Assembly: GCF_014207595.1 (NCBI RefSeq)
Contig: NZ_JACHGY010000001.1
Coordinates: forward strand, 1,426,001 to 1,490,000
Length of the DNA: 64,000 nucleotides
From: Algisphaera agarilytica
GTDB lineage: Bacteria > Planctomycetota > Phycisphaerae > Phycisphaerales > Phycisphaeraceae
Direction of reading: 5' to 3'
This document shows, piece after piece, positions 23,852 to 24,970 of this stretch. The notes under the pieces are model-generated. The model searched no databases and was not told the DNA's origin. It was given only the letters and a program-made list of their open reading frames with translations. A program made the translations under genes and the position numbers. Every line of letters starts with the position of its first letter. Position 1 is the stretch's first letter.

Positions 23852-24970
23852 TCAGAACAGCCCGTCGCCGCCATCCGCCGACGCATCCTCCGCCGGGCGG
23901 AACTTCACGCCCACGTGCTCGGCCCCGGCCTTTGTCAACATCCGGCCCTTGCGCGTCCGCGCCAAAAACCCGATCTGCAGTAGGTACGGCTCGACCATCG
24001 ATTCCAGCGTCCCCGAATCCTCGCCCAGTGTTGCCGCCACCGCTTCGAGCCCGACGGGGCCGCCCTCGTAGGTCGTGCCGATGACGGTGAGGTACTTGCG
24101 GTCGATCTCGTCGAGGCCGAGGTGATCGACACCTTCGAGTTTGAGCGCATCGTTCACGAGTTCGGGCGTGAGGTTGCCATCGGCCTTCACCTGCGCAAAG
24201 TCGCGCACCCGGCGGAGCAAACGGTTGGCGATCCGCGGCGTGCCGCGCGAGCGGTCGGCGATCGTCGCCAAAGCTTCGATCACTTCCCCCTTAGCCCCCG
24301 GCTCTGCCGGGGGGTTCGCTTCAACACCCCGAGGCCCCCCGGCAGAGCCGGGGGCTAAGGGGGTCAGGCCCAATAGATTCGCGCTGCGTTGCAAAATGCT
24401 CAGCAGGTCGTCGTGGTTGTAGAACTCGAGGTTGTGCGTGATCCCGAAGCGCGACCGCATCGGCCCGGACAGCAGGCCCGCCCGCGTCGTCGCGCCGATC
24501 AACGTGAACGGCTTGAGCGTGATCGGGATGGTCTTGGCGTGCATGCCGGTGTCGATGGTGAAGTCGATCTTGAAGTCTTCCATCGCCGGGTAGATGAACT
24601 CTTCGACCGCCGCGGGCAAGCGGTGGATCTCGTCGATGAACAGGACGTCGCCACGCTGGAGCTTGGTCAGCGTGCCGACCAGGTCGCCACCCTTGGTGAG
24701 CGCCGGCCCGGCCGTCACCGTGACGTGGGTGCCCATCTCGTTGGCGATGATGTGGGAGAGCGTGGTCTTGCCCAGGCCGGGCGGTCCGTGGAGGAGGACA
24801 TGCTCCATCGGCTCGCTGCGCTGCTTGACCGCTTCGAGGGTGATCTTGAGCTTCTCGACGAGGGCGGGCTGGCCGACGTAGTCGTCGAGGGTCTGCGGGC
24901 GCAGCGACAGGTTGAACGTCTCTTCGTTCAGGTCGGTCGAGGCGGCAGTAACGATGCGTTCGGTGGCCAT
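23852..24970 (-). CDS. ruvB: Holliday junction branch-migration ATPase RuvB with in-frame palindromic insertion
   Basis: 372 residues, about 30 longer than usual. Motor of the RuvAB complex that drives branch migration in recombination repair. Walker A is HGPPGLGKTTLSHIIANEMG, Walker B LFIDEIHRLP, sensor 1 GATTRAGLLSGPMRSRFGI, sensor 2 GTPRIANRLLRRVRDF, and the C-terminal winged-helix end is LEPYLLQIGFLARTRKGR-like. Residues about 203-229 (LAPGSAGGPRGVEANPPAEP) are encoded by a 78-bp palindromic element (24286-24363) that keeps the frame and sits in the linker before sensor 2. No ruvA or ruvC is adjacent. The start has no ribosome site but a -10-like TAAATT 6 nt upstream. Confidence 0.97.
   Translation of the reverse strand: MATERIVTAASTDLNEETFNLSLRPQTLDDYVGQPALVEKLKITLEAVKQRSEPMEHVLLHGPPGLGKTTLSHIIANEMGTHVTVTAGPALTKGGDLVGTLTKLQRGDVLFIDEIHRLPAAVEEFIYPAMEDFKIDFTIDTGMHAKTIPITLKPFTLIGATTRAGLLSGPMRSRFGITHNLEFYNHDDLLSILQRSANLLGLTPLAPGSAGGPRGVEANPPAEPGAKGEVIEALATIADRSRGTPRIANRLLRRVRDFAQVKADGNLTPELVNDALKLEGVDHLGLDEIDRKYLTVIGTTYEGGPVGLEAVAATLGEDSGTLESMVEPYLLQIGFLARTRKGRMLTKAGAEHVGVKFRPAEDASADGGDGLF
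24286..24363. repeat. 78-bp palindromic element inside ruvB
   Basis: Two perfect 29-bp inverted arms (24286-24314 and 24335-24363, beginning CCCCCTTAGCCCCCGGCTCT) surround a 20-nt loop. The element length is exactly 26 codons and leaves ruvB in frame. Confidence 0.95.

Follow-up and report, generated by a model that had tools for sequence, protein, structure and literature searches.

A palindrome within ruvB

The window, which is the whole stretch of 64,000 nucleotides that was analysed, carries a ruvB gene on its minus strand. Inside this gene is a palindrome that consists of two inverted copies of a short hairpin separated by a spacer. The features are as follows:

23852..24970, minus strand: ruvB, the host gene of the insertion; 372 amino acids, frame intact; NF000868 at 442.7 bits (cut-off 282)
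24286..24363, no strand assigned: REPIN, a 78-nt palindrome with perfect arms, which encodes residues ~203–229, TPLAPGSAGGPRGVEANPPAEPGAKGE
24291..24313, plus strand: REP 1, a TTAG head (24291–24294) with an 8-bp stem and a TCT loop
24315..24334, no strand assigned: spacer of 20 nt between both 29-nt arms, which varies from copy to copy
24336..24358, minus strand: REP 2, an inverted copy of REP 1, identical in sequence

The arms (24286–24314 and 24335–24363) are complementary at 29 of 29 nucleotides (100%) around the 20-nt spacer, and the 78-bp perfect palindrome of the original prediction is thus real. Its RNA folding energy gives z = -8.5 relative to chance, with none of 200 shuffles equally good, and at -77 kcal/mol the fold of the RNA is highly stable. 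An Rfam scan of the 64-kb window at gathering thresholds gave no matches. The minus-strand reading frame is open and Pfam RuvB_N, AAA_lid_4 and RuvB_C all score above cut-off, which bears out an in-frame insertion into an otherwise intact RuvB. The frame is kept because the insert is 78 nt long. It had been described as exactly 26 codons, which is correct for length and frame; the ends, however, lie off codon boundaries, as by coordinates the insert begins at the second position of codon 203 and ends at the first position of codon 229. The conserved RGTPRIANR motif stands after the insert, in agreement with the linker location that had been proposed, at a site which we take to be before "sensor 2".

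The repeat family in this genome

The arm is not confined to ruvB: a 24-mer taken from it recurs genome-wide in 30 copies at ≤3 mismatches, while the reversed-pattern control gives 0. When a degenerate 22-mer is used, also at ≤3 mismatches, 48 REP copies are found (control, 0). By position these group into 26 places, comprising 22 inverted +/- pairs with their heads outward and four single copies. Each REP starts with a 5' head, followed by an 8-bp GC stem that closes a loop of 3 nt. Of the 48 copies, 43 have a TTAG head, a count that is biased upward since the search pattern itself began with TTAG; none has GTAG, and a GTAG head would cost just one of the three permitted mismatches. At the fifth stem pair, 13 copies have C-G, 33 have G-C, one has T-A and one T.G. 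These swaps are compensatory changes, that is, the stem covaries.

REPIN spacers vary between copies, and some copies join two different REP types so that their arms are imperfect. Consequently, the perfect arms in ruvB are no sign of selection for arm pairing. This had been offered as one meaning of the perfect arms and is unsupported; the other, a recent event, is the simpler reading, with two REPs of the same type inserted recently. Two inverted, TTAG-headed REP hairpins that belong to a dispersed family make the ruvB palindrome a REPIN. The family has the anatomy of this class: inverted REPs around a spacer, dispersal in multiple copies, a hairpin with a 5' tetranucleotide and a RAYT gene flanked by the same REPs, as described below. 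Passage through the element in frame is nothing special, as 46 of 114 frames across 19 REPINs are open anyway.

A RAYT-like transposase gene between the same REPs

A gene for an HUH (Y1-type) protein is present at G000:C1:846421-846909, where G000 is this genome. The protein reaches 25.0 bits with Pfam Y1_Tnp (cut-off 23) and stays far below the cut-off of NCBIfam REP_Tyr_transpos (23.3 versus 80 bits), so that the name RAYT leans more on context and motifs than on profiles. One TTAG-family REP lies just upstream of the ATG and one overlaps the stop codon, with another farther out on each side. The genome has six Y1-like matches, namely three to Y1_Tnp (two above cut-off) and three weak additional ones, and by coordinates this gene is the sole one of them with a TTAG-family REP place nearby. 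The TAG stop codon of the gene (near position 846910; ~1771-1773 of locus L007) belongs to the TTAG head of the downstream REP.

Some RAYT homologue is found in 30 of the 61 genomes searched, this genome included. The six closest in other genomes are 58% to 36% identical, and WHxH and Y[IV]xxH are common to all seven proteins. Similar GC hairpins, counted only if a perfect stem spans 7 bp or more, occur on both sides of the homologue in G041 (58%), G010 (48%), G016 (44%) and G012 (41%), and on one side only in G004 (40%) and G048 (36%). The heads of these hairpins are TTAG, TCAG, GCAG, ACAG or ATAG, and the stems vary by genome.

Within the 61-genome search, no close RAYT was found in the five genomes that have the exact REP pattern (G008, G025, G027, G028 and G052). 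The best RAYT match in G008 has an E value of 5e-15, G025 has none, and the one homologue inspected in G027 is accompanied by a hairpin of another kind. Two congeners, 78% and 91% complete, gave neither an exact REP match nor a RAYT match. The REPINs of G027 (L159, L160, L162 and L164) are flanked by additional similar sequence, e.g. agtggtgcgttgcatctgtttcttt, as if they were within a larger repeat.

The insert in the RuvB protein

Of 61 genomes, this one included, 59 yielded a RuvB. The RuvB loci of 29 relatives were aligned, one of which is cut off and 28 of which cover the insert site; in the protein alignment, the insert is missing from the site in all 28. The inserted residues are not common to all close relatives and the repeat is not a single occurrence without intergenic relatives, these being the two outcomes that the original prediction had named as counting against it. 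A precise empty site and a target-site duplication were sought in the DNA of G002, G015, G010 and G049. Here, the junctions could not be fixed at the nucleotide level because the length and sequence of the linker vary in each relative compared.

Structures point to the same segment. Solved RuvBs align up to query residue 206 (chain residue 207) and resume at query residue 233 (chain residue 209), which means that about two dozen residues are extra. An AlphaFold model of the protein, made with 44 aligned RuvBs, has a mean pLDDT of 90.4. It places a coil at residues 200–225, with block pLDDT values of 70, 58 and 76, between helices on either side and neighbours that are mostly above 90. As modelled, this is a low-confidence loop between intact RuvB domains. 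Once translated, the insert is probably an unstructured loop, rich in Pro, Gly and Ala, with the large AAA domain on one side and the lid domain on the other, and it is probably near-neutral for function.

Other intragenic copies in this genome

A copy was called intragenic when there was coding signal in one open frame on both sides and the protein was recognisable. By this measure, in-frame REPINs are present at five of the 26 places: in ruvB, mfd, leuS, a GT4 glycosyltransferase gene and the gene for an aminoacetone-oxidase-like FAD enzyme. Mfd, RuvB, LeuS and the FAD enzyme pass their NCBIfam cut-offs, and GT4 is below its own (161.7 versus 400). PDB alignments of LeuS and GT4 expose the insert directly; the insert of the FAD enzyme falls in a gap between matched PDB stretches, and the insert of Mfd is within an unaligned PDB stretch, where relatives have a variable segment. 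When mfd, leuS, the FAD enzyme gene and ruvB are aligned with relatives, most of the relatives are without an insert of such kind. The spacers and reading frames of the five inserts are not alike.

The other 21 places have no convincing coding on both sides and look intergenic when judged from codon usage, a crude test. Open reading frames over places 3001336, 3006240 and 3330196 were rejected as genes because a better frame ends beside the element or because one side is without coding signal; place 3006240 scored >0.1 on both sides and was left out by judgement. Place 3798806 was counted as intergenic, as it precedes the first residues that are likely to be coding in its open reading frame, which presumably encodes an asparagine synthase-like protein. 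If, by the usual rule of thumb, coding sequence makes up roughly nine tenths of the genome, five intragenic places out of 26 means that insertions within genes are strongly lost.

Insertions into the same loops in other genomes

The leuS loop that precedes the editing domain was aligned in 24 relatives. In G041, this loop contains a REPIN with perfect 28-nt arms of the type of its own genome (a GGT..ACC stem, as beside the G041 RAYT), which has 40 copies in G041 with a looser pattern (control, 0). In G015, the same loop contains an element of an AGCGAG family that starts with AGCGAGCCGG and is present in 59 copies at ≤2 mismatches (control, 1); by this count it is a dispersed repeat. A counted repeat is thus present at this loop in two of the 24 relatives and in this genome, that is, in three genera. 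The elements are two TTAG variants, each typical of its own genome, and one AGCGAG family. A palindrome, CCCACGTTCA..TGAACGTGGG, also lies in this loop in G048 (L217), with its copies uncounted. Three clustered copies of the G015-type AGCGAGCCGG repeat, with 1–2 mismatches, are found in this genome at G000:C1:2103839-2104568 (L355, L358 and L360).

The GT4 of G015 is 31% identical to that of this genome over 226 residues. Its gene (L392, G015:C20:5950-8950) has an in-frame, AGCGAG REPIN-like pair at 1438-1515, at most a few residues from the position of the TTAG REPIN here. Single in-frame REPs of the TCAG type, read as SAPGSAGG, are present in ileS of G010 (L344) and, within linkers of low complexity, in two genes of G016, namely polX (L398) and that of a sigma-54 type response regulator (L407). 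In sampled loci, two-sided coding was seen for one of 20 elements in G015 (leuS excluded), for two of 23 in G016 and for two of 30 in 27 mixed loci, one of the last being the same PolX copy. Nineteen sampled REP loci of G008, G027, G052, G028 and G016, together with two of G010, gave no convincing in-frame insertion; one open reading frame of G008 (L157) passed the crude coding score on both sides of its REP.

Comparison to known systems

The closest anatomical match is to the REP doublets, or REPINs, with RAYT of Bertels and Rainey (2011; PMC3116915), which, in the available text of that study, share the inverted REP pairs, the variable spacer, the dispersal and a REP-flanked RAYT. There, the head is GTAG or GTGG instead of TTAG, the commonest 16-mers have 1,067 copies compared with 26 places here, and only 14 of those 16-mers overlap genes compared with five of 26 places inside genes here. 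None of the 48 copies has the GTAG or GTGG head by which the GTAG REP superfamily is defined.

Intragenic REPs have been known since 2013, when GTAG and CGTC REPs were described within genes (PMC3733652). According to the main text of that paper, these are similar in that REP dimers in genes encode 20–30 amino acids, many of the genes function in repair and tRNA synthetases are also affected; there, too, the TAG of REPs provides stop codons. The sole case of same-site insertion in that text is recB, in two species of Xanthomonas. TTAG, ruvB, mfd, leuS and Phycisphaer- are absent from the main text, which was the part within scope.

HUH-Y1 genes flanked by hairpins, sometimes in multiple copies, are also known from Planctomycetes as TnpAY1 class 3 (PMC6006769). 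As this class is presented in the available text, it has a CnGA foot and Y----Q, whereas the family here has a TTAG head and YIERHA, and membership was rejected on these two differences.

Origin of the ruvB palindrome

At a probability of roughly 0.9, the ruvB palindrome is a REPIN that was moved by a RAYT and has survived at a tolerant loop, with the peptide loop near-neutral. Here, a copy of the REPIN would have been cut by the RAYT and carried in single-stranded form into ruvB. Most insertions into genes would be lost, and the survivors would be those that lie in a flexible loop and leave the reading frame open. For E. coli TnpAREP, binding and cleavage of single-stranded REP in vitro have been reported (PMC8266576).

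An insert that is kept for a purpose, i.e. an mRNA hairpin or a peptide that tunes RuvB synthesis or activity, is improbable. Such tuning was speculated on for REP-tagged repair proteins in the main text of PMC3733652. Among the five genes with an insert, ruvB and mfd function in DNA repair or recombination, which echoes that work, and the stability of the folded insert RNA, at -77 kcal/mol, would also fit. The remaining three genes, however, are those for LeuS, a glycosyltransferase and an FAD enzyme. Since the five inserts vary in spacer and frame and sit where most aligned relatives (of mfd, leuS, the FAD enzyme gene and ruvB) do without, tolerance is the default reading.

The likeness to Rickettsia palindromic elements (RPEs) that was originally proposed holds for behaviour, as in both cases an in-frame palindrome gives a peptide to unrelated housekeeping proteins, five genes being affected here. 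Membership is another matter and is scarcely credible: RPEs, in the available text of PMC10969869, are ~150 bp long, about twice the 78 bp found here, belong to another phylum and are described without a link to a RAYT, whereas the ruvB element comprises two TTAG-REPs in a planctomycete with a RAYT between such REPs, and is a REPIN by anatomy. The two are set apart here by their descriptions. RPE-4 and RPE-6 are themselves said in PMC3733652 to match REP repeats of R. conorii.

GC-rich hairpins are difficult sequencing targets, which is what an assembly artefact would have in its favour. An artefact, or a palindrome that arose by chance, nevertheless has a negligible probability, because the same element is present at 26 places, with five open frames, and other genomes have their own versions in homologous loops.

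REPINs as a possible source of linkers

A broader proposal is that RAYT/REPIN systems of Phycisphaerales are a recurrent source of linkers, and that different families enter the same loops of core enzymes beyond what tolerance gives, either by RAYT target motifs or by selection for the hairpin or peptide. This is tentative and, on balance, doubtful. The hits in the same leuS and GT4 loops are observed; the excess over tolerance is a supposition that they suggest.

A search of the literature on intragenic REPs, Phycisphaerales RAYT and RuvB palindromic repeats found no earlier report, PMC3733652 being the nearest. As far as searched, the TTAG REP family and its RAYT clade in Phycisphaerales are new, as are REPINs in one leuS loop of three genera and one GT4 loop of two. 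REPs are called extragenic, but about one place in five here is in frame within a gene. The repeated loop hits map out, by natural experiment, the sites at which core enzymes such as RuvB, Mfd and LeuRS tolerate some 20–26 extra residues, and they allow the idea that mobile hairpins supply protein linkers to be tested. In addition, the varied heads beside related RAYTs (TTAG, TCAG, GCAG, ACAG and ATAG) provide a series in which the reading of the tetranucleotide by RAYTs can be tested.

Possible other repeats in RuvB and Mfd linkers

Two minor observations concern these linkers in other genomes. In G041, mfd (L188) has a linker insert, PLTQPSPGGRG, from CCCTCACCCAACCCTCTCCCGG, which looks like another repeat family, with its copies uncounted. 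In G020, the linkers of both ruvB (L041) and mfd (L175) contain the unit CAAGGGGCCGAGGGGCCG, with the peptide GQGAEGPxGQV, which may be a further coding repeat that this pair of proteins carries.
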